From Helcobacillus massiliensis (GTDB lineage: Bacteria; Actinomycetota; Actinomycetes; Actinomycetales; Dermabacteraceae): DNA of 64,000 nt. The translations under genes were made by a program, and so were the position numbers. Of the stretch, positions 458 to 14,201 are shown piece by piece; the first letter of the stretch is position 1, and each line of letters begins with the position of its first letter. Location: the NCBI RefSeq assembly GCF_014191425.1, contig NZ_JACHWP010000001.1, forward strand, positions 806,001 to 870,000, read 5' to 3'. The notes under the pieces were generated by a model, which saw only the letters and a list, made by a program, of their open reading frames with translations, did no database searches and had not been told where the DNA came from.

Positions 458-559
458 GAGCCCATCGCACACCCCAGACGGCCCCTGTGGCGCGAGGACC
501 ACTACATTGTGGATAACCGGGAGGCGGCGGCCCACCCGCGGTGGCGTAGGGTGGAGGGC

Positions 560-1249
560 GTGCTTGAGATCATTCGCGTCGGCTTCTCCGAGGATTCAGG
601 ACTGGACTCCACCCACGAGCAGTGGGGGCTGCCGCCCGGTCCCGTCGAATACCGAGCCGCGTGGGATCTGCAGCGCCGCATCCACGCCGAAGTCGTCGGC
701 GGTGAGCGCCCCAACACGCTGCTGCTGCTGGAGCACCAGCCGGTGTACACCGCCGGCAAGCGCACCATCGACGAGGAGCGCCCCCAGGACGGAGCGCCCG
801 TGGTGGATGTGGACCGCGGCGGCAAGATCACGTGGCACGGACCCGAGCAGCTCGTCGGCTACCCCATCGTGAAGCTGCCCCCGCCGATCGATGTGGTCGG
901 ATTCGTCCGCGGCATCGAAGAGGCGATCATGGCGGTGTGCGACCAGGTCGGTGTGAACACCGTGCCCATCGAGGGCCGTTCCGGTGTGTGGGTGCCCGAC
1001 CCGCTCGGCATGGACCGCAAGGTGTGCGCCATCGGGCTGCGCGTGTCCAAGCGCGCCACCATGCACGGGTTCGCCCTGAACTGCGCGAACGACCTCTCCT
1101 GGTCCCACAACGTCATCCCCTGCGGGATCGACGACGCCGGGGTGACGAGCCTCAGCGTGGAGACCGGGTGCACCATCCGACCAGCTGACGTGATCCACGC
1201 GGTCGAGGAGCAGATGCGTCAGCTCGAAGCGAACAAGGGCCTGGACTGA
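560..1249 (+). CDS. lipB: Octanoyl-[acyl carrier protein]:protein N-octanoyltransferase
   Basis: Transfers octanoyl groups from ACP to lipoyl domains (E2 subunits, GcvH), the first step of de novo protein lipoylation. Family signatures are present: GGKITWHGPEQLVGYP with His93, the catalytic Lys164 in VSKRATMHGF and the catalytic Cys188 in IPCGI, giving the LipB Lys/Cys pair. GTG at 560 is preferred because a TAGGGT -10 box (547-552) ends 7 nt upstream, suggesting a leaderless message; an in-frame GTG at 509 would add 17 residues unlike the family. Length from 560 is 229 aa, normal for LipB. lipA follows 80 bp downstream with its own -10 (TAGACT, about 1294) and a strong ribosome site. Confidence 0.95.
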   Translation: MLEIIRVGFSEDSGLDSTHEQWGLPPGPVEYRAAWDLQRRIHAEVVGGERPNTLLLLEHQPVYTAGKRTIDEERPQDGAPVVDVDRGGKITWHGPEQLVGYPIVKLPPPIDVVGFVRGIEEAIMAVCDQVGVNTVPIEGRSGVWVPDPLGMDRKVCAIGLRVSKRATMHGFALNCANDLSWSHNVIPCGIDDAGVTSLSVETGCTIRPADVIHAVEEQMRQLEANKGLD

Positions 1250-1329
1250 GTTCCCTGCATCACCCCGTTCCGGGCAAACGCGGGGCCCCTCGATAGACTG
1301 GGCCGAACCCAATTCAAGGAGGCTGAGGC

Positions 1330-2412
1330 GTGACGGTCGCATCTGAAGGACGGAAGCTGCGTCGAGTGGAAGCTCGCAATGCGGAAACTCCGATCGAGCG
1401 CAAACCGAGCTGGATCAAGACCACCGCGAAGATGGGCCCCGAGTACGCTGCGATGAAGCAGCGGGTGCACGGCCAGGGTCTGCACACGGTCTGCGAAGAA
1501 GCGGGCTGCCCGAACATCTTCGAATGCTGGGAGGACCGCGAGGCGACCTTCCTCATCGGCGGTGACACCTGCACGCGCCGCTGCGACTTCTGCGACATCG
1601 CCACCGGCAAGCCGATGCCCGTGGACCCCGCGGAGCCGTTCAAGGTCGCGATGCAGGTCAAGGACATGGGCCTGCGCTACTCCACCATCACCGGTGTGGC
1701 GCGCGACGACCTCTCCGACGGCGCCGCCGGGCTGTTCGCCGAGACCTGCAAGCAGATCCACAAGCTCAACCCCGGCACGGGCGTTGAGCTGCTGATCGAC
1801 GACATCAAGGGTGACGCCGGGGCACTGCAGAAGGTCTTCGAGGCCAAGCCCGAAGTGTTCGCCCACAACCTCGAGACCGTGCCGCGGATCTTCAAGCAGA
1901 TCCGCCCCGCGTTCCGCTACGAGCGCAGCCTCGATGTGCTGCGGCAGGGCAAGGACGCCGGCATGATCACCAAGTCCAACCTGATCCTCGGCATGGGCGA
2001 GACCACCGAGGAGATCATCGAGTCGATGCAGGCGCTGCACGATGCCGGCACCGACATCCTCACCATCACCCAGTACCTGCGCCCCTCGAAGCTGCACCAC
2101 CCGATCGACCGGTGGGTGAAGCCGATGGAGTTCGTGGACCTGTCGAAGAAGGCGTACGAGATCGGCTTCCTCGCCGTTATGGCCGGCCCGATGGTCCGCT
2201 CCTCGTACCGTGCGGGTCGTCTCTGGGCGGAGGCCATGAACAAGCTCGGCCGTCCGATCCCGGAGGAGCTGAAGCACCTGGACACCTCGACCCCTGCGAC
2301 CCAGGAGGCCGAAGCCGTGGTGGAGCGCATGAAGGAGCGCGAGGAGCGGCACGCCGCCCTCGAGGCTCGCCGTGCTGCTCGCCGCGCAGCTGACGCCGCC
2401 TCCGGCCGCTGA
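1330..2412 (+). CDS. lipA: Lipoyl synthase (radical SAM)
   Basis: Inserts two sulfurs into protein-bound octanoate to make lipoyl groups, following LipB. Both iron-sulfur sites are visible: the auxiliary-cluster cysteines 55, 60 and 66 ([12 protein letters not shown]) and the radical-SAM CTRRCDFC motif at 81-88. The conserved C-terminal RSSYRAG supplies the Ser ligand of the auxiliary cluster. At 360 aa the length is typical for actinobacterial LipA. The GTG start at 1330 has AAGGAGG about 8 nt upstream. It is followed 32 nt later by the DUF4191 gene, probably co-transcribed. The aceE gene in this window encodes E1 of a complex whose E2 needs this pathway. Confidence 0.98.
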
Positions 2413-2444
2413 CCCCTCCCGAAGCGACCTGAGCGAAGAAGGAC

Positions 2445-3188
2445 ATGGCGAAGAAGAAGACCCGCGGCGGTTCGGCCGCCGCATCCCCATCCCCCGATAC
2501 CGCGCCCGGCAAGAAGCCCGGCCGCATGAAGCAGATCTTCGAGGCGTACAAGCAGACGCAGCGGGAGGACCCGAGCACACTGCCGTGGATGCTCGGCGCC
2601 CTCATCGGCTGCATCGTGCTGTTCTCCCTCCTGCTGTGGCTGATCCTCGATGCACCGATCTACGGCGCGTTCATCGGCCTGGCGTTCGGTCTGATCGCGG
2701 CCCTGTTCATCCTGGGTCGTCGCGCTGAACGCGCCGCCTACGCGAAGATCGAGGGCCAGCAGGGCGCCGAGCTCGCCGCTATGCAGTCCATTCGCCGCGG
2801 TTGGAACGTGGAACGGGACCCGGCGGCGTTGGAGCCGCGCGGCCACACCATGCTGTTCCGCGCCTCCGGTCGTCCCGGCATCGCCCTGGTGGTGTCCGGA
2901 TCGAACGGTCCGGCCCGCAAGCTGATGGGCAAGGAGGTCTCCCGCATGGAGCGGCTCTTCCCGAATGTTCCGGTGCACGGCATCCACGTGGGGCGCGGTG
3001 AGGACGAGATCCCGCTGCCGAAGCTGGCGACGTACATGCAGCGCATGAAGCCGACCCTGACGAAGCATGAGGCCGGTGAGGTCTCGCGCCGCCTGCAGGC
3101 GATGCCGAACCCGATCCGCCAGGCTGTGCCGAAGGGTGTGGATCCGATGCGTGCGCGCCCGAACCGTCGCGCGATGCGCGGCCGCTGA
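2445..3188 (+). CDS. DUF4191 family membrane protein
   Basis: 247 aa. Lys/Gly-rich cytoplasmic N terminus, two adjacent transmembrane segments at about 48-68 and 71-91, then a soluble domain ending in an Arg-rich tail (NRRAMRGR). It matches the actinobacterial DUF4191 family, which is habitually encoded just downstream of lipA. Function is unknown; linkage suggests a link to lipoylation or envelope housekeeping, but that is only inference. The ATG has AAGAAGGA upstream. A GC-rich hairpin ends the transcript (3226-3260). Confidence 0.85.
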   Translation: MAKKKTRGGSAAASPSPDTAPGKKPGRMKQIFEAYKQTQREDPSTLPWMLGALIGCIVLFSLLLWLILDAPIYGAFIGLAFGLIAALFILGRRAERAAYAKIEGQQGAELAAMQSIRRGWNVERDPAALEPRGHTMLFRASGRPGIALVVSGSNGPARKLMGKEVSRMERLFPNVPVHGIHVGRGEDEIPLPKLATYMQRMKPTLTKHEAGEVSRRLQAMPNPIRQAVPKGVDPMRARPNRRAMRGR

Positions 3189-3225
3189 TCGCATTGGTCG
3201 CGCCGCTGCGGCGGTGATGACGGTG

Positions 3226-3260
3226 ACGGGCCCGTGGGGAGATGCTCCCTGCGGGCCCGT
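3226..3260. terminator. Hairpin terminator after DUF4191
   Basis: ACGGGCCCG (3226-3234) pairs perfectly with CGGGCCCGT (3252-3260) around a 17-nt loop, followed by a pyrimidine-rich stretch. It lies between the converging DUF4191 and RDD genes, so it may stop transcription from both sides. Confidence 0.65.
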
Positions 3261-3327
3261 TCTCCGTTCTCAGAGTGCCGCGGGGTGAGGGGGGGGACGA
3301 CGGAGTCTGCAGGCGGGGCGGACGGGA

Positions 3328-3768
3328 TCAGGAGGTGGCGCGGATCACCAGCACGCCGGCGGCCATATCGTGACCGAGCTGACGGTCCCTGCCCTGAATG
3401 ACCAGGGGGATCAGCAGCGCCATCAGCAGGGTGCGGATGAGGGCCCGCAGCACCATTGGCGAGCGGCCGCTGACGGGCATGAGGCGCAGGCCGCAGAAGA
3501 ACTGGCCGATCGTGGCGCCGAACAGGGGCAGCATCAGCAGATTGATCGCGAGGAACACGGCGGTGGACCCCCAGTTGGTGGGGCCGAACGCGAGATAGGC
3601 GCCACCGGCGGAGACCAGGGCGTCGATGATCCAGGAGGTGAAGCGGATGCCGAGACGCGCTGGGGAGCCGGGACCATCGGCGGGCACGCCGTACCGGGAA
3701 CCGGGGCGGTAGTCGGGGTCAGTCGGTGCGCCCTCCAGCCAGGTCCCCAGGTCTTTTCTCTCGATCAC
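3328..3768 (-). CDS. RDD family membrane protein
   Basis: 146 aa from the chosen GTG. Soluble N-terminal stretch with [11 protein letters not shown], then an RDD domain: [17 protein letters not shown] opens the first membrane segment, and GLRLMPVSG and the charged [12 protein letters not shown] segment are typical. Three or so hydrophobic segments. Function is unknown; RDD proteins are proposed transporters or membrane scaffolds. GTG at 3768 is chosen because a TATCTT -10 box (RC of 3775-3780) ends 6 nt upstream (leaderless); an in-frame GTG at 3840 would add 24 residues. It is divergent from glnA, an arrangement common in actinobacteria. Confidence 0.8.
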
Positions 3769-3819
3769 ATCCGAAAGATACGCGGTGGTCAGATCCGATT
3801 CAACTCTCGGGTCGCCGTT

Positions 3820-3825
3820 TAGGAT
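3820..3825 (+). promoter_or_regulatory. Putative glnA -10 box (TAGGAT)
   Basis: TAGGAT lies about 68 bp upstream of the glnA GTG, giving an untranslated leader near 60 nt. It sits between the RDD and glnA starts. I did not see a clear -35 or a GlnR/AmtR operator by eye. Confidence 0.4.
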
Positions 3826-3892
3826 GGGAGGGACATGCACCCCTCACAGGTGCTGGCAGACCGCGCGACCACGTGCGAATTGGAGGAACAGA

Positions 3893-5317
3893 GTGTTCAG
3901 CAGCCCGGAAGAAGCCGTCCGTTACATCGAAGAGGAGGACGTCAAGTTCGTCGACGTCCGCTTCATCGACCTCCCCGGTGTGATGCAGCATTTCAATCTG
4001 CCCGCGAAGTCGTTCGACCTCGAAGCCATTGAGACCGGGCAGCTGTTCGACGGCTCATCCATCCGCGGCTTCCAGGCGATCCACGAGTCCGATATGAAGC
4101 TGATCCCGGACCTCGAGACCGCCTACATCGACCCGTTCCGCGATCAGAAGACTCTGATCATCAACTTCTCCATCGTTGACCCGTTCACCGATGAGCCGTA
4201 CTCCCGTGACCCCCGGACGGTTGCGGCGAAGGCCGAGGAGTACCTGAAGTCCACCGGCATCGCCGACACCGCGTTCTTCGCCGCCGAAGCCGAGTTCTAC
4301 ATCTTCGACGACATCCGGTACAAGACCGGCATCAACAGCTCCTTCTACGAGATCGACTCGGATGAAGCCGCCTGGAACTCCGACCGCATCGAAGAGGGCG
4401 GCAACCAGGGCTACAAGACTCGCGTCAACGGCGGCTACTTCCCAGTCCCGCCCGTGGATCAGCTCGCTGACCTCCGCGACGAGATCTGCCGTGTCCTGGA
4501 CGAAACCGGCCTGGAAGTGGAGCGCGCCCACCACGAGGTCGGCACCGCCGGCCAGCAGGAGATCAACTACCGCTTCTCCACGCTGCAGCAGGCCGCTGAC
4601 GACGTCATGAAGTTCAAGTACGTGGTCCGCAACGTCGCCTGGGAAGCCGGCCGCACCGTCACCTTCATGCCGAAGCCGCTGTACGGTGACGCCGGGTCCG
4701 GTATGCACTGCCACCAGTCCCTGTGGAAGGACGGCGAACCGCTGTTCTACGACGAGCGCGGCTACGGCGGCCTGTCCGATATTGCGCGCTGGTACATCGG
4801 CGGTCTCATCGAGCACGCGCAGGCCCTGACCGCGTTCACCAACCCGACCGTGAACTCGTTCAAGCGCCTCGTGCCCGGCTTTGAAGCACCGGTCAACATG
4901 GTGTACTCCGCCCGCAACCGATCCGCTGCTATCCGCATCCCAGTCACCGGTTCGTCCCCGAAGGCGAAGCGCCTGGAGTTCCGCGCCCCGGACCCGTCGG
5001 CCAACCCGTACCTGGCGTTCGCAGCGCAGCTGATGGCCGGCATCGACGGCATCCGCAACCGCATTGAGCCGCCGGAGCCGATCGACAAGGACCTGTACGA
5101 GCTGCCGCCGGAGGAGCACGAGGCGATCGCGAAGCTGCCCGAGTCCCTCAGCGGCGCCCTGGACGCCCTGGAGAAGGACCACGACTTCCTCACCGAGGGT
5201 GATGTGTTCCCCGCAGACCTCATCGAAACGTGGATCGCGTACAAGCGGGAGAACGAGATCGAGCCGTTCCGCCTGATCCCCCACCCGCTGGAGTTCGAGC
5301 TCTACTACGACCTCTGA
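3893..5317 (+). CDS. glnA: Glutamine synthetase type I (GlnA1)
   Basis: Makes glutamine from glutamate, ammonia and ATP; central to nitrogen assimilation. 474 aa, the normal type I length. The GTG at 3893 is preceded by TGGAGGA 6 nt away; upstream in-frame codons are non-coding. Visible motifs are [19 protein letters not shown] and NRSAAIRIP of the active site. The adenylylation site Tyr402 lies in [10 protein letters not shown], so it should be regulated by GlnE, encoded 4.5 kb downstream. A second, shorter synthetase (glnA2) is also in the window. Confidence 0.98.
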
Positions 5318-5330
5318 TCCCATCGCCGCA

Positions 5331-5346
5331 CTGATCAGCTGATCAG
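5331..5346. repeat. 16-bp perfect palindrome between glnA and the amidase gene
   Basis: CTGATCAGCTGATCAG, a direct doubling of the palindrome CTGATCAG, begins 13 nt after the glnA stop. It could be a small terminator stem or an operator for the downstream amidase, whose -10 (TAGCGT, 5368-5373) begins 21 bp later. No T-run follows. Confidence 0.6.
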
Positions 5347-5379
5347 CGGCCGACGGATGCTGCGCGGTAGCGTTGTGCC

Positions 5380-6822
5380 ATGTCCCACCTGCATGAGCTC
5401 AGCGCTGCCGCGCTCCTTTCTGCCCTGAAGAACCGGGAGGTCAGCGCCGTCGACGCAGCTCGCCACTTCCTTCAGCGCTGCGAGGGCGACCAGACGAACG
5501 CGATCGTCTCGCTCGAACCCGAAAGGGCCCTGGAGCGAGCTGCCCAGGTGGATGCCGGCAATTTCACCGGGCCACTCGCCGGGCTCCCCACCGCGGACAA
5601 GGACCTGCATCAGCGCCGAGGGTGGGTCGCCACGTTCGGCACCCGCCGCTTCCGCGGCCTGCGCGCGGAACGGACCGACGCGCTCACCACGCAGCTCGAC
5701 TCCACCGGTGCCCTCTCGCTTGGCGCCACCGCCAGCCCTGAGTTCGGCTTCACGAACTACACCCGCTCGCTTCTGCACGGCACCACGACCGTTCCCGGCC
5801 GGCCGGACCTCAACGCGGGCGGCTCCTCCGGAGGCGCGGCCGCCGCGGTCGCCTCCCGCATCCTGCCCGTCGCGCCCGGCTCAGACGCCGGTGGGTCCGT
5901 GCGCATTCCCGCCGCGGCCTGCGGCATCATCGGCCTGAAGCCGTCGCGCGGCCGCATCGCCGCGATGGATGGGCAGGACGCCCTGGGCGGTCTCCCGACA
6001 GCGGGCGTCCTCGCCCGATCCGCTGAGGACGCGGGGATCCTCCTGGATGCCCTCATCACCCGCGGGGCCGACGGCGCACCCACCTCCGGTGCCGCCACCG
6101 CTCCCCCACCGCCGCAGCGTCGATCCTTCGCCGACATCCGCGACCTCGCGCCGGGCCTGCGGGTCGGGGTGATCGCGGGCCCCACCCTGTGGGACGAGGT
6201 GGTCGACTGCCCCACCAGTGCCGAAGCGGCGCAGGCGCAGGACGCCGCCATCGCGGCGCTCACCGGTCTCGGTGCTGAGGTGGAGGAGGTGCGTCTGCCG
6301 TCGTTGCCGGGGTACGCGCAGGCGTTCATGACGCTGTGGATGGCGAACGCGGCGCAGCTGCGCTCCCTGCCCTCCCCCATGGAGGAGCCGCCGCCGTTCG
6401 AAGCGCTGACCCGCTGGCTGATCGAGCAGGGCCGCAGCCTCGACCCCGGTGACGTCGCGGCATCCGTCGGCCGCTTCGCTGAGGTGGAGCGCGCCCTGAT
6501 CCGCACGTTCGCGCCCTATGATCTCGTCCTCTCCCCCACCACCGCGCTGCCGCCCCGCCCGAACGACTGGCCCGGTGACCTCGAGACCGGGGACGGGCTC
6601 GCGAACTTCCACGCCCAGTGCCAGTACAGTCCCCACACCTCCATGATCAACGTGGCGGGGCTGCCTGCTGTGTCCGTGCCGACCGTGCGGGTCGGCGACG
6701 GCGTCTCGATGAGCGTCCAGCTGATCGGGCGGCCCGGCCGGGAGGACCTGTGCCTGGATGCGGCGCAGGCACTGTCCGCGGCAACGGGGAACATCGCGCT
6801 GAGCGCCGGGGACGGCTCATGA
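5380..6822 (+). CDS. Amidase signature family hydrolase
   Basis: 480 aa. The Ser-cisSer-Lys triad of the amidase signature family is present: Lys74 (PTADKDLHQ), Ser149 in NAGGSSGGAAAAV and Ser173 in SDAGGSVRIPAAACG. These enzymes hydrolyse amides; the substrate cannot be read from sequence. It is not obviously GatA, since no gatB/gatC is nearby. TAGCGT (5368-5373) ends 6 nt before the ATG, so the message is probably leaderless. The stop overlaps the ATG of the sensor kinase (ATGA), so the enzyme and the two-component system are translationally coupled. Function within that module is inferred only. Confidence 0.88.
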   Translation: MSHLHELSAAALLSALKNREVSAVDAARHFLQRCEGDQTNAIVSLEPERALERAAQVDAGNFTGPLAGLPTADKDLHQRRGWVATFGTRRFRGLRAERTDALTTQLDSTGALSLGATASPEFGFTNYTRSLLHGTTTVPGRPDLNAGGSSGGAAAAVASRILPVAPGSDAGGSVRIPAAACGIIGLKPSRGRIAAMDGQDALGGLPTAGVLARSAEDAGILLDALITRGADGAPTSGAATAPPPPQRRSFADIRDLAPGLRVGVIAGPTLWDEVVDCPTSAEAAQAQDAAIAALTGLGAEVEEVRLPSLPGYAQAFMTLWMANAAQLRSLPSPMEEPPPFEALTRWLIEQGRSLDPGDVAASVGRFAEVERALIRTFAPYDLVLSPTTALPPRPNDWPGDLETGDGLANFHAQCQYSPHTSMINVAGLPAVSVPTVRVGDGVSMSVQLIGRPGREDLCLDAAQALSAATGNIALSAGDGS

Positions 6823-8105
6823 GCGCAGCGATGACGGTGCCACGATCAGAATCGCGGCTCGCGGCAGGGGTGCGCTGGTTCGTGCATCTGCTGCTGTACG
6901 CACTGTCGGGAATCGTGGGACTGCTGCTGCTCGCACGATCCGAACCCGGGGCAGGCCCCGCGGTCGCCGTGCTCGTCCTGCTGGTGAGCGTCTACTCCCT
7001 CGGTGCGCGGTTCTCAGTGGAGCGCCCTCAGGATCCGGCGCCCAGCGCCTCCCCGCAGTCCCTGACCGGCGTGCACCCGCGCCGCTCTCTTCTCGCCCTG
7101 CTGCTGACGCTCGCACTGTGGTTGGTGCTGTGCGTGCTCACCCCCCAGGGCGTCTGGATCGCATTCGCCCTCTTCTTCGCCGTCCTCATGCTCCCCTCCC
7201 GCATCTTGGGCATCACACTGCTGTTCCTGGTTGCGCTGGTCGCGGGGTTCGCGCCCGCGCTCCACACGACGGAAACGGCTGTTCTGGGCCCCGGCCAGGT
7301 GCTCGGCCCGTTCATCGGCGCCCTCGTGGCCCTCGGCATCATGAGCACACTGCGGACCCTGCAGAAGGAGATAGCGATCCGTGAACTCATCACCCGTGAA
7401 CTGCGCACCACCCGCGCGCAGCTCGCCCGCACCGAACGCGACGCCGGCATCGCCCAGGAACGCGAACGCATCGCCCGCGACCTCCACGACACAGTCGCCC
7501 AGTCCACCATCTCCATCAGCATGCTCCTGGAGTCCGCGCAGCGCGCCGCCGCCGACTCCGACACCGCGCGCCTGGGCGAACTGCTCGAATCAGCGCTGGA
7601 CATGACACGGCAGACCACCCGGCAGACCCGCCAGTTCGTCGACGCCGGTGCTCCCTCCGCTGCGCCGGTCGACGAGGACCCGGCCGCCGTGCTCTGCCAG
7701 GAGCTGCAGCAGCTGGTGGACCAGCATCAGCTGACGACCAGCGCCCGGATCGTTTTGCGCTGCGACCTCTCCGCCAGCGACAGCGCCCCGGGAATCAGCG
7801 CCGAGCCGGACGCCCGCCCGGCCATACGGCAGAGCGCCGCGCAGACCCTTGTCCGCGTTGCCTCCTCCCTGCTGGCGAACGCTGTCCAGCACGCCCGGGC
7901 CGACACGATCGTGGTGACAGTCGGGCAGCATGAGGGCGAGCTCATGCTGGACGTCGTGGATGACGGCGCCGGCATCCCCACCGGCCGGGATGAGGGCTTC
8001 GGTCTGCGCACCGTCCGCGCCCGCGTGAAGTCCGCCGGCGGCACCGCCACCGTGGAGACGGCGCCCGCGCACGGAACCGCCGTATCCGTGACCGTCCCCG
8101 CGTGA
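6819..8105 (+). CDS. Sensor histidine kinase, NarL/LiaS-type (HisKA_3)
   Basis: 428 aa. About five or six membrane segments span residues 20-177 with little extracellular loop, which suggests sensing within the membrane. A short coiled linker leads to the dimerisation domain with phospho-acceptor His223 in [13 protein letters not shown]. The ATPase domain shows LLANAVQHA (N box), VDDGAGIP (G1) and [11 protein letters not shown] (G2). The ATG at 6819 overlaps the amidase stop by four bases. The response regulator starts 67 bp downstream. The signal is unknown; related intramembrane kinases answer envelope stress. Confidence 0.93.
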
Positions 8106-8172
8106 CCGCCCCACGATCCGCCCCAGGGCGGCGTGGAACACTGAGAGCCGCACTGAACCGAGGAGGCCCCCG

Positions 8173-8796
8173 ATGACTCGCATCATGCTCGCCGACGACC
8201 ACGCCATCGTGCGCCAGGGGCTGCGCACCGTGCTGGAGGCCGACGGGGGCGACCTCGACGTGATCGGTGCCGAAGCCGCCACCGCGGAGGACGCGCTTCG
8301 ACTCGCGTCCCTGCACCGGCCGGACGTTGTGCTGCTGGACCTCCAGTTCGTGTCCGGCGCCGCCCGCGGCACCGACGTCATCGCTGACATCGTGGCCCTG
8401 GACAGCGCCCCCGTGGTGATCGTGCTGACCACCTACGACAACGACCAGGACGTCCTCGCGTCCATCGACGCCGGCGCCACCAGCTACCTGCTGAAGGACA
8501 CGCCGGGGCCTGAGATCGCCGCGGCGATCCGCCGCGCCGTCAGTGGGGAGTCGGTGCTGGACCGCAGGATCCGTCGGCGCCTCGACAGTGAGGCCGCGCT
8601 GTCGCAGCGGGAGCGGGAAGTGCTCGACCTCGTGGCCCGCGGCGCCACCAACGCCGCGATCTCCCGCGAACTGTTCCTCTCGCAGGCGACGGTCAAAACG
8701 CACCTCGTGCACATCTTCGACAAGCTGCAGGTGCGTTCGCGCACCGAAGCGGTGGCCCGGGCGCGTGAGCTCGGTGTGCTGCGCTCCGACGCGTGA
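8173..8796 (+). CDS. Response regulator, NarL/FixJ family (REC-LuxR HTH)
   Basis: 207 aa. Receiver domain with the acidic pair in [11 protein letters not shown], phospho-acceptor Asp56 (VVLLDLQF), Thr in VLTTYD and Lys in YLLKD. The C-terminal LuxR-type helix-turn-helix ([18 protein letters not shown], then [13 protein letters not shown]) binds DNA. Cognate partner of the preceding kinase by adjacency. GAGGAGG upstream of the ATG is a strong ribosome site. Targets are unknown, but the amidase-kinase-regulator operon itself is the obvious first candidate. Confidence 0.95.
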
Positions 8797-8874
8797 CAGC
8801 CGGCGCCCGCGAGGGCTCCTCGTCGGTCGTGCCGGACGGGCCCGCAGCGCGGGGCATGCGAGCCTCTCGAGACG

Positions 8875-9771
8875 TCAGAGCTTCGCGTTCAGCAGACTGA
8901 AGAGCAGCTCCTTCGGGTTCTGTGCGGCGTCAAGGGCGCAGTCGTCCGGCAGGAAGTCCCAGGAGCGGCGCAGCGACTGGAACACTTCCCATTCCGCGTC
9001 ACCGGTGCGCAGCGGCACCACCTGGTAGCCGCCCGCCTCCGGCAGGTGGATCACGAACGCACCGGTGAGCTCCGGCATGTCCCGAATGGTGCCGTCGTTG
9101 TCCAGCAGGTTCTCCGCGCGCACCACCGCCACCCCCTGGAGGGCGTAGTCGCCGCGCACCCGTTTGGATGTCTTGATGTCCGCTGAGAGCACCGAACCAC
9201 CGATCTTCACGATCGCGTCGGTCGTGCCGGCGTAGCCGACGGTGCGGTTCAGCACGGTCTGTTCGATCTCCACGAACTCCGGTTGGAACTCCTCGAGGAA
9301 GCGGTCGAACCCGTCGAGGCGGACATCGGCGCGGTCCAGCAGCGCGCCCAGATTGCGCTCCAGAACCAGCACCCCGTTCCCGCGCAGCTGCGTGGCGAGG
9401 TCCGACATGTCGGTGCGGCTCGGCCGCTCACCGGAGCGCTCCCACATCTCGCAGAGCGCATGCACATAGGTGCCGAAGTCGGCGGCGGTCTGCGTGTACT
9501 CCTCCGCGGCCGCCGCGATCTTCTTCTGCGTGCCCCATCTGTCGCGGGAGACGCGGCGGATCTCCTCCATGGCGCGGCCCGGGTTGCGGTCGAGGTAGGC
9601 GAACATGTCGAGGGCGCGCTGGCCGGCCATACGCGCGTACCAGGACTGCAGACTGTCCTTGGAGCGCATCCCGGCAACGGTCGTGATCGAGGGGTAGACG
9701 AGCTTCCCGCCGGGCTCCACTCGGTACATGCGGCCACGGGGCGTGCTGCCGCTCAGCTCAGGTGTAGTCAT
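8875..9771 (-). CDS. PD-(D/E)XK (RecB/Cas4-like) nuclease, last gene of the glnA2-glnE operon
   Basis: 298 aa. N-terminal YPSITTVAGM resembles the YPSVTT motif of phage-type exonucleases. The nuclease core then appears in order: His104 (GTYVHALCE), acidic Glu168/Glu170 (EFVEIEQTV), Asp185 (GYAGTTDAIV), Asp198-Ile-Lys200 (SADIKTSK) and Gln212 (YALQG). This is the RecB/Cas4 arrangement, but without the four iron-sulfur cysteines of Cas4. There is no CRISPR array or recombination partner nearby. It starts 12 nt after the glnE stop, so it is probably co-transcribed with nitrogen genes. Cellular role unknown; I infer a domesticated phage or repair nuclease. Confidence 0.75.
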   Translation of the reverse strand: MTTPELSGSTPRGRMYRVEPGGKLVYPSITTVAGMRSKDSLQSWYARMAGQRALDMFAYLDRNPGRAMEEIRRVSRDRWGTQKKIAAAAEEYTQTAADFGTYVHALCEMWERSGERPSRTDMSDLATQLRGNGVLVLERNLGALLDRADVRLDGFDRFLEEFQPEFVEIEQTVLNRTVGYAGTTDAIVKIGGSVLSADIKTSKRVRGDYALQGVAVVRAENLLDNDGTIRDMPELTGAFVIHLPEAGGYQVVPLRTGDAEWEVFQSLRRSWDFLPDDCALDAAQNPKELLFSLLNAKL

Positions 9772-9783
9772 TGCCCATCAATG

Positions 9784-12700
9784 CTACTCGCCGAACAGCT
9801 CCCTCTCGGTGACCGACCTGGCGCGGCGGGTGAGTTTCAGGTAACGATCCATCATCTCGCGCGCGGACTCCTCCGACCCGGTGATGAGGCCCGCCAGTGC
9901 CGCGAGCTCGTGCGCGTCGCCCGGCAGCACGTCGGTTTCGCGGCCCTTCCAGAGGAACAGGGCGCGCCGCAGCTGCCACGCCATCCGCCAGGCCTGGCTG
10001 AGGGTGTCGGCGTCGGTGCGCGGCAGGGTCCCGTCGGCCGCCAGCACCTCCAGGGCGGTCAGGGTGGAGGTGGTGCGCAGCTGCTCGTTCTCGTGCGCGT
10101 ACTCGGTCTGCAGCTTCTGCACCACCCACTCCACGTCGGTCATCGCACCCGGCCCCAGCTTCAGGTGATGGGTGGCGCGGGCGGCCCGCGGGAGGCGTTC
10201 GGATTCGATGCGCGCCTTCATCCGCGCCAGCTCCCGCGCGGCCGACGGGGTCAGCCCCTCCGACGGGTACCGCACCTCGTCCAGGACCTGCACCACCTGC
10301 GCCTTCGTCTCCTCCGGTCCCACGAGCGGTGCGGCCCGCAGCAGCGCCTGCTTCTCCCACCGCTCCGCGTGCTGACGGTAGTAGTCGCTGAAGGACGCGA
10401 GTGTGCGCACCAGGGCGCCGGAGCGGCCTTCGGGGCGGAGGTCGGCGTTGACCTTCATGTCGATGCCGCTGGAGGGGGCGTTGAGGATCTTCTGCAGATG
10501 CGTCACCACGGTGGTGCCGGCGGCCACGAGGTCCGAGTCGGTCAGGTCGTCCGGGCCTTCCACCACGAACTGGACGTCGGCGTCGGAGGAGTAGCCCATC
10601 TCGCCGGCACCGAACGACCCCATCGCGATGACGGTGAGGATGACCCGGGGCGCATCCGTCGCGCCCTCCTGCTTCGCCTGCAGGCGGGCGATGTGCAGCG
10701 CCGCCTGCAGGACCGCAGCCGCGAGATCGGTGAGCGCTTCCGCGACCCGGGACGGGTCGATGACGCGGGTGACATGGGCGAGGGCGATGCGGGTGATCTC
10801 GCGGGAGCGGACGTGCCGCAGAACGTCGATCAGCTCGGCGGCATCATCGGTGCGCTTCATCGTGGCGTCCAGTTCCGCCACGATCGACTCCCCGGAGCGG
10901 GGTTCGAGGTCGGCGTCACGACCGAGCCACCTCGCCGCCCCCGGCACCGACTCCAACTGGTTGCCCACGTACTTCGAACTGGCCAGCACACGGGTGAGGC
11001 GCTTCGCGGCGACACCGGAATCGCGCAGCATGCCCAGGAACCAGTGGGTGGAGCCGAGCTCATCGGACAGCCGGCGGAATGCCAGCAGCCCCAGGTCCGG
11101 GTCGATGCCGTCAGCCAGCCATTCCAGCAGGGACGGCAGCAGCTGTCGCTGGATCGCGGCCCTGCGGGACAGCCCCTTGGTGAGCGCCTCGATGTGCTGA
11201 CCGGCGCGCTTGGCGTCGCGGTAGCCGATCGCGGCGAGCCGCGCCTGCGCCGACGCCGGCGTGAGCGCGACCTGGCCATCGGACAGGCTGGCGGCGGTCA
11301 GCAGCAGCGGTCGGTAGTAGATCTCCTCGTGCAGCTGCTTCACCCGGCGGCGGATCGCATCGAGGTTCTTCTCGAACACCTGCGGGTTCATGTCCATGGC
11401 GCGGGAGAGGCGCCGCACGTCCGCCGGTGAGGTCGGCACCACCTGGGAGCGGCGCAGGCGGTGCAGCTGGATGCGGTGCTCCAGTGCCCGCATCAGACGG
11501 TACGCTCGGTCCAGCTCGGCCGCCTGGTCGCGCGCCACGTACCCACCGTCGGTCAGCTGCGCGAGAGCCGACAGGGTGTCGGGGGCGTGGATGGAGTCAT
11601 CGGTGCGGCCGTGCACCATCTGCAGCAGCTGCACGGTGAACTCCACGTCCCGCAGACCGCCGGGGCCGAGCTTGAGGTTGCGGTTCACTTCGGACTTCGG
11701 GATCAGCTCCACTACGCGGCGCCGCATTGCGCGCGTGTCCTCCACGAAGCCGTCACGGGTGGAGGCCTGCCACACCATGGGCTCCACCAGTTCCACGAAC
11801 CGCTGCCCAAGCGCCGCATCCCCAGCGGCGGGGCGCGCCTTCAGCAGCGCCTGGAACTCCCACGAGGACGCCCACCGCGTGTAGTAGGCGGCGAACGAAT
11901 CGATGGTGCGGACCAGCTCACCGTCCTTGCCCTCGGGCCGCAGGTTCGCATCCACCTGCCACAGGGCGCCCTCCTTTGTGCGGTCCGCGCACACGCGCGC
12001 GAGCTCTCGGGCGAGGGCCCCGCCGATGGCGGTGACGTCATCGGCGCTGACCTCATCGTCCGCCGCGTCGGCGGCGTAGATGACGTCCACATCGGAGATG
12101 TAGTTGAGCTCCTGGGCCCCGGTCTTGCCCATGGCGATGACGGCCAGGCGCACCTTGTCGTGGTCGGTGACCTGGGCGCGCGCCTGGGCGAGTGCGGCGT
12201 CGAGGGAGGCGCCGGCCAGGGCACTGAGTCGCCGGGACACGTCGGGCTGGGCGTCAGCGGCGTCGGGGGCGGTGATGTCCGCCAGGGCGATGCGGCAGAG
12301 GATGTCGTGGTACTCGATGCGGATGCGGTCGCGTCCGTCCTGCCCGGTGCAGGAGGAGACCGGCATGTCAGCATCCGGGTCCGCGCCGATCGCCTTCAGA
12401 AGGCGGGCGCGGTAGGAGTCCATCGGCAGAACGTCCTCCTCCACCAGGGCGAGCCGTTCGGGGTGGCGGGTGAGGAAGTCGCCGAGCGCTGCGGACACCC
12501 CGAGCAGCTGCACGAGGCGCTCCCCTGCCTCCGACCCCACCACTCGCTCGAACAGTGCGCGCTGCTCGCCGCGGTTCGCCGCTTCGCCGACCCGCAGCAG
12601 CGCGATCGTCGCCTCATCGGGGTCCGCGGTCGTGCCGATGGTGCGCACCAGGGACGGCGGCACCGCCGCCAGGTCCTCATCGGCGAGGAAACGAGCGGAC

Positions 12701-12792
12701 CGCTCCGTGTGGACGAAGCCGAGACGGGCGAGCTCGGCGTGGTTGAACGGGCCGTTCTCCTGAATCGCTTGGATCGCTGAGGTGGGGAGCAT
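9784..12792 (-). CDS. glnE: Bifunctional glutamine synthetase adenylyltransferase/adenylyl-removing enzyme
   Basis: 1002 aa. Two nucleotidyltransferase domains are visible: AMGKTGAQELNYISDVDVIY in the N-terminal half and AMGSFGAGEMGYSSDADVQF in the C-terminal half, each with the G-x8-D-x-D pattern of the GlnE family. It adenylylates and de-adenylylates Tyr402 of GlnA1 according to nitrogen status. ATG at 12792 lies 6 nt after the glnA2 stop, so glnA2-glnE is an operon, the order usual in actinobacteria. A nuclease gene follows 12 nt downstream. Confidence 0.97.
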   Translation of the reverse strand: MLPTSAIQAIQENGPFNHAELARLGFVHTERSARFLADEDLAAVPPSLVRTIGTTADPDEATIALLRVGEAANRGEQRALFERVVGSEAGERLVQLLGVSAALGDFLTRHPERLALVEEDVLPMDSYRARLLKAIGADPDADMPVSSCTGQDGRDRIRIEYHDILCRIALADITAPDAADAQPDVSRRLSALAGASLDAALAQARAQVTDHDKVRLAVIAMGKTGAQELNYISDVDVIYAADAADDEVSADDVTAIGGALARELARVCADRTKEGALWQVDANLRPEGKDGELVRTIDSFAAYYTRWASSWEFQALLKARPAAGDAALGQRFVELVEPMVWQASTRDGFVEDTRAMRRRVVELIPKSEVNRNLKLGPGGLRDVEFTVQLLQMVHGRTDDSIHAPDTLSALAQLTDGGYVARDQAAELDRAYRLMRALEHRIQLHRLRRSQVVPTSPADVRRLSRAMDMNPQVFEKNLDAIRRRVKQLHEEIYYRPLLLTAASLSDGQVALTPASAQARLAAIGYRDAKRAGQHIEALTKGLSRRAAIQRQLLPSLLEWLADGIDPDLGLLAFRRLSDELGSTHWFLGMLRDSGVAAKRLTRVLASSKYVGNQLESVPGAARWLGRDADLEPRSGESIVAELDATMKRTDDAAELIDVLRHVRSREITRIALAHVTRVIDPSRVAEALTDLAAAVLQAALHIARLQAKQEGATDAPRVILTVIAMGSFGAGEMGYSSDADVQFVVEGPDDLTDSDLVAAGTTVVTHLQKILNAPSSGIDMKVNADLRPEGRSGALVRTLASFSDYYRQHAERWEKQALLRAAPLVGPEETKAQVVQVLDEVRYPSEGLTPSAARELARMKARIESERLPRAARATHHLKLGPGAMTDVEWVVQKLQTEYAHENEQLRTTSTLTALEVLAADGTLPRTDADTLSQAWRMAWQLRRALFLWKGRETDVLPGDAHELAALAGLITGSEESAREMMDRYLKLTRRARSVTERELFGE

Positions 12793-12798
12793 CGCGGA

Positions 12799-14136
12799 TC
12801 AGACGGCGTTGAAGGTCGAGGCGAGCTCAGAGTCCGTCACCTGGTTGCGGTACTTCGCCCACTCGTCGTGCTTGTTGCGGATGATGAACTCGAACACCTC
12901 CTCACCGAGGATCTCCGCCATCAGTTCGGAGTCCTCGAACGAGTCCAGCGCCCGGTACAGGTCCGAGGGCAGCGGCTCGATGCCCATGGCTCGGCGCTCC
13001 CGATCGGTCAGGTCCCACACGGTGTCCTCCGCGCCCTCCGGCAGGTCGTACTCGCCCTCGATGCCTGCGATGCCGGCGCCGAGCAGAACAGCGAACGCGA
13101 GGTACGGGTTCGCTGCGGAGTCGAGGCCCCGGAACTCCACGCGGGAGCTCGTGCCCTTGGTGGGCTTGTGGTACGGCACTCGCACCAGCGCAGACCGGTT
13201 GTTGTGGCCCCAGCAGATGAAGCTCGGCGCTTCCTGCTTGCCCCACAGACGCTTGTAGGAGTTCACGAATTGGTTGGTGATCACCGAATATTCGGGGGCG
13301 TGGCGCAGCAGGCCGGCGATGAAGTGCCGCGCCGTCTTCGACAGCCCGTACTCGGCTCCCGGTTCATGGAACACGTTCTTCCCGTTCTGGAACAGGGACA
13401 GGTGCGTGTGCATGCCGCTGCCGGGCTGGTCCACGATCGGCTTCGGCATGAACGTGGCGACCTGGCCCATGGAGTGCGCGACCTTCTTGGTCATGGCGCG
13501 CATGGTCAGGATGTTGTCGGCGGTGGCGAGGGCGTCGGCGTAGCGCAGGTCCACTTCGTTCTGGCCGGGCCCGCCTTCGTGGTGGGAGTACTCCACGTGG
13601 ATGTTCATCGACTCCAGTTGGCTGATGAGCTCCCGCCGGTAGTTGTTCGCGGTGGGGCGCTGCACGTAGTCGAAGTAGCCGCCGTCATCGATGGGCTGCA
13701 GGGGCTCCCCGCGCCGCCAGGGCTTCTCGAACAGGTAGAACTCGATCTCCGGGTGGGTGAAGAACTCCAGCCCCATCCTCTCGGCCCGTTCGAGGGCGCG
13801 CTTGAGGACGCCGCGGGGGTCGGAGGCGGCGGGCTCGCCGTCGGGAGTGAGGACATCGCTCATCATCACGCCGGTTGTGCCGGTGGAGTCGTACTCGGGG
13901 AGGATGCGGAACGTGCTCGGGTCGGGGGCGAGCAGCATGTCGGACTCGTAGGTGCGGGTGAGGCCCTCGATGGTGGAGCCGTCGATGCCCAGGCCCTCAT
14001 CGAACGCGGTCTCCAGGTCCGTGGGCGAGATGACCACCGATTTCAGGGTTCCCACCACATCGGTGAACCACAGACGGATGTAGTCGACGTTCGCTTCTTC
14101 AACCTGACGCAGCACGGAGTCCTGTTGGCGTTCCAT
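12799..14136 (-). CDS. glnA2: Glutamine synthetase GlnA2-type
   Basis: 445 aa, about 30 residues shorter than GlnA1. Active-site motifs DGSTIEGLTR, PGSGMHTHLSL and NRSALVRVP are present, but the adenylylation stretch is replaced by MGIEPLPSDLY, so control by GlnE is doubtful. Related actinobacterial GlnA2-4 proteins are either minor glutamine synthetases or gamma-glutamyl-polyamine synthetases; sequence alone does not decide. ATG at 14136 is favoured: CACAAT (RC of 14143-14148) ends 6 nt upstream, consistent with a leaderless message, and codons further upstream look non-coding. Confidence 0.9.
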   Translation of the reverse strand: MERQQDSVLRQVEEANVDYIRLWFTDVVGTLKSVVISPTDLETAFDEGLGIDGSTIEGLTRTYESDMLLAPDPSTFRILPEYDSTGTTGVMMSDVLTPDGEPAASDPRGVLKRALERAERMGLEFFTHPEIEFYLFEKPWRRGEPLQPIDDGGYFDYVQRPTANNYRRELISQLESMNIHVEYSHHEGGPGQNEVDLRYADALATADNILTMRAMTKKVAHSMGQVATFMPKPIVDQPGSGMHTHLSLFQNGKNVFHEPGAEYGLSKTARHFIAGLLRHAPEYSVITNQFVNSYKRLWGKQEAPSFICWGHNNRSALVRVPYHKPTKGTSSRVEFRGLDSAANPYLAFAVLLGAGIAGIEGEYDLPEGAEDTVWDLTDRERRAMGIEPLPSDLYRALDSFEDSELMAEILGEEVFEFIIRNKHDEWAKYRNQVTDSELASTFNAV

Positions 14137-14201
14137 GCGGACATTGTGCCCCACGCAGCTCGGCCGGAACTGCAGATCACGGGCTGCGCTGCGGGGTGGG
14201 G

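Follow-up and report, generated by a model that had tools for sequence, protein, structure and literature searches.

Directly behind glnE, in the 64,000-nucleotide stretch of Helcobacillus massiliensis DNA analysed here (the window), lies a gene for a protein that is homologous to the human mitochondrial exonuclease MGME1 (mitochondrial genome maintenance exonuclease 1), is predicted to share its fold and has its catalytic residues intact. The gene is fixed in two related families, Dermabacteraceae and Micrococcaceae, and so is not an isolated passenger. We put at about 55% the probability that the protein is an active MGME1-like exonuclease, engaged in the routine trimming of single-stranded DNA ends and flaps in replication or repair and playing no part in nitrogen control.

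The gene and its surroundings

The nuclease gene is the final gene of a minus-strand glnA2-glnE unit and converges with a regulator gene on the other strand:

8173-8796, plus strand: LuxR-type response-regulator gene, convergent with the nuclease gene
8875..9771, minus strand: nuclease coding sequence, 298 residues plus stop, predicted PD-(D/E)XK, RecB-type, MGME1-like exonuclease
9781..9786, minus strand: putative -10 hexamer TAGCAT, promoter-like, which overlaps the stop codon of glnE and lies 9 nt from the nuclease ATG
9784..12792, minus strand: glnE, glutamate-ammonia-ligase adenylyltransferase (Pfam GlnE), the conserved upstream neighbour in Dermabacteraceae
12799..14154, minus strand: glutamine synthetase gene of the glnA2 type (Pfam), directly upstream of glnE, with an uncertain start codon, as the ORF is open to 14457

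The initial annotation described a 298-residue protein starting 12 nt past glnE, and the ORF coordinates agree: on the minus strand, 12 bases (9772-9783) separate the glnE stop from the nuclease ATG, while the plus-strand frame at 8875-9771 contains a stop. Spurious long ORFs are frequent in this GC-rich window; this one is genuine, since its product is 64–79% identical across the family (24 members) and matches the phrog_298 exonuclease profile at 2e-28. The surroundings had also been described as free of CRISPR, recombinase and prophage genes. The first part of this holds for positions 1-30000 of the window, where no CRISPR-like repeat array is found; as to the rest, a Pfam scan of ten neighbouring ORFs (509-14154) assigned nine to ordinary bacterial families and found no match for one at 1e-5.

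Fold, family and active site

Profile searches and structure prediction both bear out the PD-(D/E)XK nuclease fold that was initially proposed. Pfam PDDEXK_1 (PF12705) scores the window protein at 19.2 bits, under the Pfam gathering cut-off of 22, and a scan against NCBIfam returned 0 families for it; the phrog_298 match extends over residues 10-270. For comparisons we used an alignment (A3) of 74 relatives, a hand-picked subset made up of 14 Dermabacteraceae, 18 Micrococcaceae, 1 Frondihabitans plasmid and 41 phage or other rows, all of which match phrog_298, and 59 of which match PF12705 at E 0.1 or better. A PDB search with the single sequence gave only noise, and a first structure model, calculated from 24 close relatives alone, was set aside as poor (pLDDT 48.6). 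The model calculated from the 74 A3 rows reached pLDDT 95.1 and pTM 0.87, and the protein carries the H...D...DxK...Q pattern of RecB-type enzymes on an alpha/beta core. In Foldseek searches of solved structures with this model the top eight rows were all MGME1 (best 2.4e-07), and VIA-align likewise placed MGME1 first (Z 16.3, rmsd 2.8 over 183 residues), followed by Dna2 (13.6), AdnAB (13.1), Cas4 7mi4 (11.8, 137 residues), RecE (11.2) and lambda exonuclease (8.8), with the other Cas4 structures, SSO0001 and Pcal_0546, at 10.9 and 7.2. Among solved structures the best match of the A3 profile was also MGME1, with E 3.7e-11 against its sequence. Predicted phage proteins fit the model better still than solved structures (7.0e-18; Mycobacterium phage Thonko exonuclease 2.9e-11). 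The likeness to MGME1 is one of fold and sequence, and as such fixes neither the polarity nor the substrate of the window protein, nor its orthology.

Is the protein then Cas4-like, as had been suggested? It shares the RecB-type PD-(D/E)XK core with Cas4 and other PF12705 proteins, but we rejected Cas4 in the strict sense. Cas4 has four cysteines that bind an Fe-S cluster (PMC4176176), whereas the window protein has only C107 and C278, present in 9/18 and 0/18 of the Micrococcaceae A3 rows, respectively; there is no Cas4 model among its Pfam and NCBIfam hits, and positions 1-30000 of the window show no CRISPR array. Of the Cas4 models, TIGR00372 picks up 13 of the 74 relatives with E values no higher than 0.1 (the lowest being 6.7e-05), the window protein itself not being one of them, and PF01930 has no match in the window's genome. 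Non-CRISPR pfam12705 clades have been described in mycobacteriophages and other phages in a phylogenomic study of Cas4, in the main text of which the words 'Actinobacteria' and 'MGME1' do not occur (PMC5704561). RecB, AddAB and AdnAB were rejected as well, since they require a fused superfamily-1 helicase and the 298-residue protein has no helicase match.

The active-site residues and motifs, assigned by alignment, all lie on the minus strand:

9724..9735, minus strand: GRMY motif, residues 13-16, present in chromosomal and plasmid rows
9682..9693, minus strand: PSIT motif, residues 27-30, aligned with MGME1 PSVT (T30 = MGME1 T134)
9460..9462, minus strand: His104 = MGME1 H180, predicted metal ligand
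9217..9219, minus strand: Asp185 = MGME1 D238
9172..9180, minus strand: Asp198-Ile199-Lys200 = MGME1 D251-W252-K253
9136..9138, minus strand: Gln212 = MGME1 Q271, opening the QxxxY motif
9124..9126, minus strand: Val216, a tyrosine in phages and in MGME1 (Y275)

Counted by hand in the profile-to-MGME1 alignment, and with MGME1 numbered as in PMC6237815, ten catalytic, DNA-contact or arch positions of MGME1 are identical in the window protein: T134, W152, H180, E184 and E223 correspond to T30, W44, H104, E108 and E170, and D238, D251, K253, T254 and Q271 to D185, D198, K200, T201 and Q212, each being conserved in at least 73 of the 74 A3 rows. The residues singled out initially (His104, Asp185, Asp198-x-Lys200 and Gln212) are thus all present, and they are invariant in the 24 family members and the 74 A3 relatives. 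The kinship with phage exonucleases that had been read from the YPSITTV start is upheld by the phrog_298 match, and the PSIT within it aligns with the PSVT of MGME1, where T134 is among the DNA-binding residues reported as mutated with no obvious effect (PMC6237815). In the model, two long helices occupy the position of the MGME1 arch, with extra helices (64-86) between them as a difference from human MGME1, and the mitochondrial context is of course absent.

The other difference is in the QxxxY motif. Counterparts of MGME1 H180, E223, D238, D251, K253 and Q271 are all found, but that of Y275 is V216. In A3 the position is tyrosine in all 41 phage or other rows, valine in 14/14 Dermabacteraceae, glycine in 18/18 Micrococcaceae and alanine on the Frondihabitans plasmid, and two Rhodococcus plasmid proteins, read by eye, have alanine and glycine. 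The pattern persists in a wider set, with valine in all 30 named Dermabacteraceae contigs and glycine in all 30 Micrococcaceae loci, and among the best 80 of 170 IMG/VR loci, which contain many near-identical copies, we found 76 with tyrosine, 2 with glycine and 2 unmatched by the search pattern. The GRMY motif follows the same division, being present in the 33 chromosomal and plasmid A3 rows and in both Rhodococcus plasmid proteins and absent from all 41 phage or other rows. The chromosomal and plasmid forms therefore appear, as judged from these alignments, to share an altered site in which the metal ligands are retained.

Since V216 replaces the tyrosine, and the Y275A mutation strongly lowers cleavage by MGME1 (PMC6237815), the activity of the window protein could be weak or altered. 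Could it be a catalytically weakened derivative, which chiefly binds single-stranded ends or protects them, or which regulates a different repair enzyme? The loss of the tyrosine in the Dermabacteraceae, Micrococcaceae and plasmid rows alike would fit such a role; however, E170, K200 and the other metal-binding and catalytic residues are invariant in the rows examined, so that we regard this explanation as unlikely.

Relatives on chromosomes, plasmids and phages

Within Dermabacteraceae the gene is present in 35 of the 36 genomes listed (two overlapping sets, 24/25 and 33/34 listed), the exception being an outlying genus (G002) which has glnA2-glnE without it. It is present in all 149 sampled genomes of a second family (f6 in our sample), covering 32/32 genera. 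This family was named Micrococcaceae from plasmid sequence matches (Kocuria, Psychromicrobium and Micrococcus) and from a GlnE tree: along the 20,000 bases aligned, the second contig of one member (G376) is identical to a Kocuria sp. TGY1127_2 plasmid, and the naming presumes that Kocuria belongs to Micrococcaceae; the second contig of another (G237) is identical in sequence to that of Psychromicrobium lacuslunae (Micrococcaceae), the second contig of a third (G367) is nearest to Micrococcus plasmids, and in the GlnE tree the six f6 rows are separate from f19, the Microbacteriaceae, with which Frondihabitans (Microbacteriaceae) groups. That second G237 contig (L272, 3716 bases) carries bla-TEM and tet(C), is near-identical to segments found in thousands of plasmid records from enterobacteria and is probably vector contamination of the Psychromicrobium assembly. 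Outside the two families the gene is sporadic. An order-wide sample gave matches in 52 of 297 genomes, 23 of them Dermabacteraceae, 23 Micrococcaceae and 6 from four other families, with three of these six in ORFs of about 1190 residues. In a phylum-wide sample 17 of 396 genomes matched, including the window's genome and one Micrococcaceae, and in eight of the 17 the best match fell within an ORF of 992-1181 residues; the Microbacteriaceae genomes listed in this sample had no match.

Relatives are also found in 160 phage records, mostly of Arthrobacter (75), Microbacterium (37) and Streptomyces (26) phages. These actinophage exonucleases of PHROG 298, some of which are annotated 'Cas4 family exonuclease', have the same active site and are, among the matches listed, about 30% identical over about 92% of the protein, differing in that the QxxxY motif is kept and GRMY is absent. 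Its neighbours in the three phages that we inspected are genes of nucleotide and DNA metabolism. The top phage-record hit is of another kind: it is a 159-kb scaffold recorded as 'UNVERIFIED: Bacteriophage sp.' (L093; MT835496.1, 1-8759) with 66% identity, which begins inside the gene and has a glutamine-synthetase match nearby and a further, incomplete copy of the nuclease's C-terminal part, so this end looks like Dermabacteraceae-like chromosome rather than phage. Two Dermabacteraceae genomes (G004 and G003) have a second, phage-type paralogue (L027 and L026, respectively). Two IMG/VR contigs (L186 and L189), presumably the two glycine-bearing loci, carry near their ends a copy best matched by the Micrococcaceae version, perhaps from the host flank of a prophage beside a tRNA cluster; three to seven tRNA genes are found near the gene in the ten Micrococcaceae loci scanned.

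Nine plasmid records (Rhodococcus, 8; Frondihabitans, 1) match a Micrococcaceae query with 37-42% identity, eight of the nine covering at least 80%, while the same query finds phages more weakly, at 29% identity or less in most of the matches listed. The three plasmid sequences compared share GRMY and the absence of the QxxxY tyrosine with the chromosomal forms and differ in their mobile context and in being annotated as 'hypothetical' or 'cytochrome'; the relatives lie on large plasmids of Rhodococcus and Frondihabitans (L266, L267 and L268), and in the Frondihabitans genome the plasmid copy is the only one found.

Where did the chromosomal gene come from? An unrooted tree of A3 (74 rows) separates each of the three groups, phages, Dermabacteraceae and Micrococcaceae, by a branch from all other rows, and the AU test rejects neither the grouping of a phage clade with Dermabacteraceae (p 0.232) nor that with Micrococcaceae (p 0.0667). 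When the two Rhodococcus plasmids are added they nest among those of Micrococcaceae with a support of 91, and the midpoint root takes another position, leaving Dermabacteraceae beside phages. The suggestion of a domesticated phage gene is plausible, but the plasmid forms are closer to the Micrococcaceae version than the phages are, and the unrooted and midpoint-rooted trees are compatible with one capture or two and with a phage, a plasmid or a chromosome as the first home of the gene.

Given the relatives in 160 phage records and on large plasmids, and the Cas4-like nucleases found in defence contexts (PMC5704561), a captured exonuclease might have been fixed as an anti-phage or anti-plasmid nuclease which attacks the replication intermediates of incoming DNA. 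PADLOC has no match for the window protein and, of two other proteins run, gave weak DruK/Cas1g hits only for one Micrococcaceae member, and the gene stands alone, with no recognisable defence genes among the ten neighbouring ORFs scanned. Moreover, defence genes are usually patchily distributed, whereas this one is in every sampled Micrococcaceae and nearly every Dermabacteraceae genome, and we find a defensive role improbable. Pairing with an annealing protein of the RecT/Red-beta type for recombination, as in some phages, is very doubtful. RecE and lambda exonuclease do have the same fold, and in G004 a RecT match is found on the same strand as the phage-type paralogue, the edges of the two matches being some 420 nt from each other, but PF03837 (RecT) has no match in the window's genome and matches in only 2/25 genomes of the same family, and RecT is not annotated as a neighbour in the three phages inspected.

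Expression, selection and proposed role

The glnE linkage that had been noted is conserved in Dermabacteraceae, where glnE precedes the nuclease gene in 24/24 loci and, in an overlapping set, in 29 of the 30 named contigs, the remaining contig ending there. It does not extend to Micrococcaceae, where 39 of 40 loci, or 31 of the 32 genomes that these loci represent, have def or fmt downstream on the same strand (def in 33 loci, fmt alone in 6). The gap between glnE and the nuclease gene in Dermabacteraceae ranges between 12 and about 270 nt. In 23/24 family loci a TAnnnT motif occurs in the 90 nt before the ATG, against 5.5 expected from mononucleotide shuffling, the loci being related to each other and the TAG in several of them being the glnE stop; this excess is at most suggestive of a promoter of the nuclease gene's own, although a sigma-70 consensus scan reported none. 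In the window the glnE stop TAG is also the start of the promoter-like hexamer, and such an overlap recurs in several relatives. Because the Micrococcaceae gene is found at def/fmt, away from nitrogen genes, and the gap in Dermabacteraceae is variable and contains a promoter-like TAnnnT, adjacency to glnE is no functional clue, contrary to the initial annotation; the link is probably positional, a stable place for a gene unrelated to nitrogen. A functional partnership with GlnE, for which the linkage itself would speak, is hardly credible in view of this and of the glnA2-glnE unit without the nuclease gene in G002.

The nuclease is better conserved than its neighbour, at 64-79% identity to the window compared with 54-65% for glnE (29 named loci with both). 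In Dermabacteraceae, to which our dN/dS estimates apply, the ratio is 0.020-0.027 for the three pairs that L003-L005 form with one another, 0.052 and 0.053 for a further two pairs of close relatives and 0.14-0.18 between the window and its four nearest relatives (L002-L005); the remaining printed pairs (dS below 1.5) lie between 0.126 and 0.504 and are difficult to interpret, as synonymous change is apparently compressed by the high GC content. The gene is under purifying selection in this family.

What would the protein do, then? By analogy with MGME1, single-stranded ends such as tails and flaps may be taken under the arch of the two long helices (residues 39-62 and 88-113 of the model) and cut by a two-metal mechanism with H104, E170, D185, D198 and K200. 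We propose that this would serve the routine trimming of single-stranded ends and flaps during replication or repair of the chromosome. The Dermabacteraceae copy would have settled behind glnE, where its own promoter probably drives at least part of its transcription, and the Micrococcaceae copy before def/fmt. Replacement of a lost exonuclease was considered but finds no support: exonuclease VII is present in 39/39 relatives and the window's genome has two adjacent large ORFs with PDDEXK_1 matches, which look like AdnA/AdnB, and since these enzymes are already there no missing activity accounts for the gene.

A broader reading, which we offer tentatively, as it may well be wrong, is that in two actinobacterial families an exonuclease of the MGME1 type, which phages and plasmids also have, has become a part of core chromosome maintenance. 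It would be a bacterial counterpart of the mitochondrial clearance of flaps and linear DNA, with its site retuned as the QxxxY tyrosine was lost, and possibly essential. A general literature search found no title or abstract opening naming this gene. The change from tyrosine to valine or glycine is a clean sequence difference that can be tested, and the locus is a caution that conserved adjacency to glnE need not imply a nitrogen function. Here a type of nuclease familiar mainly from phages and mitochondria occupies two different fixed chromosomal sites, and as a near-universal gene of two families for which no Pfam or NCBIfam model scores above its cut-off, it may represent a part of DNA maintenance that has gone unrecognised in Kocuria, Micrococcus, Brachybacterium, Dermabacter and their kin.
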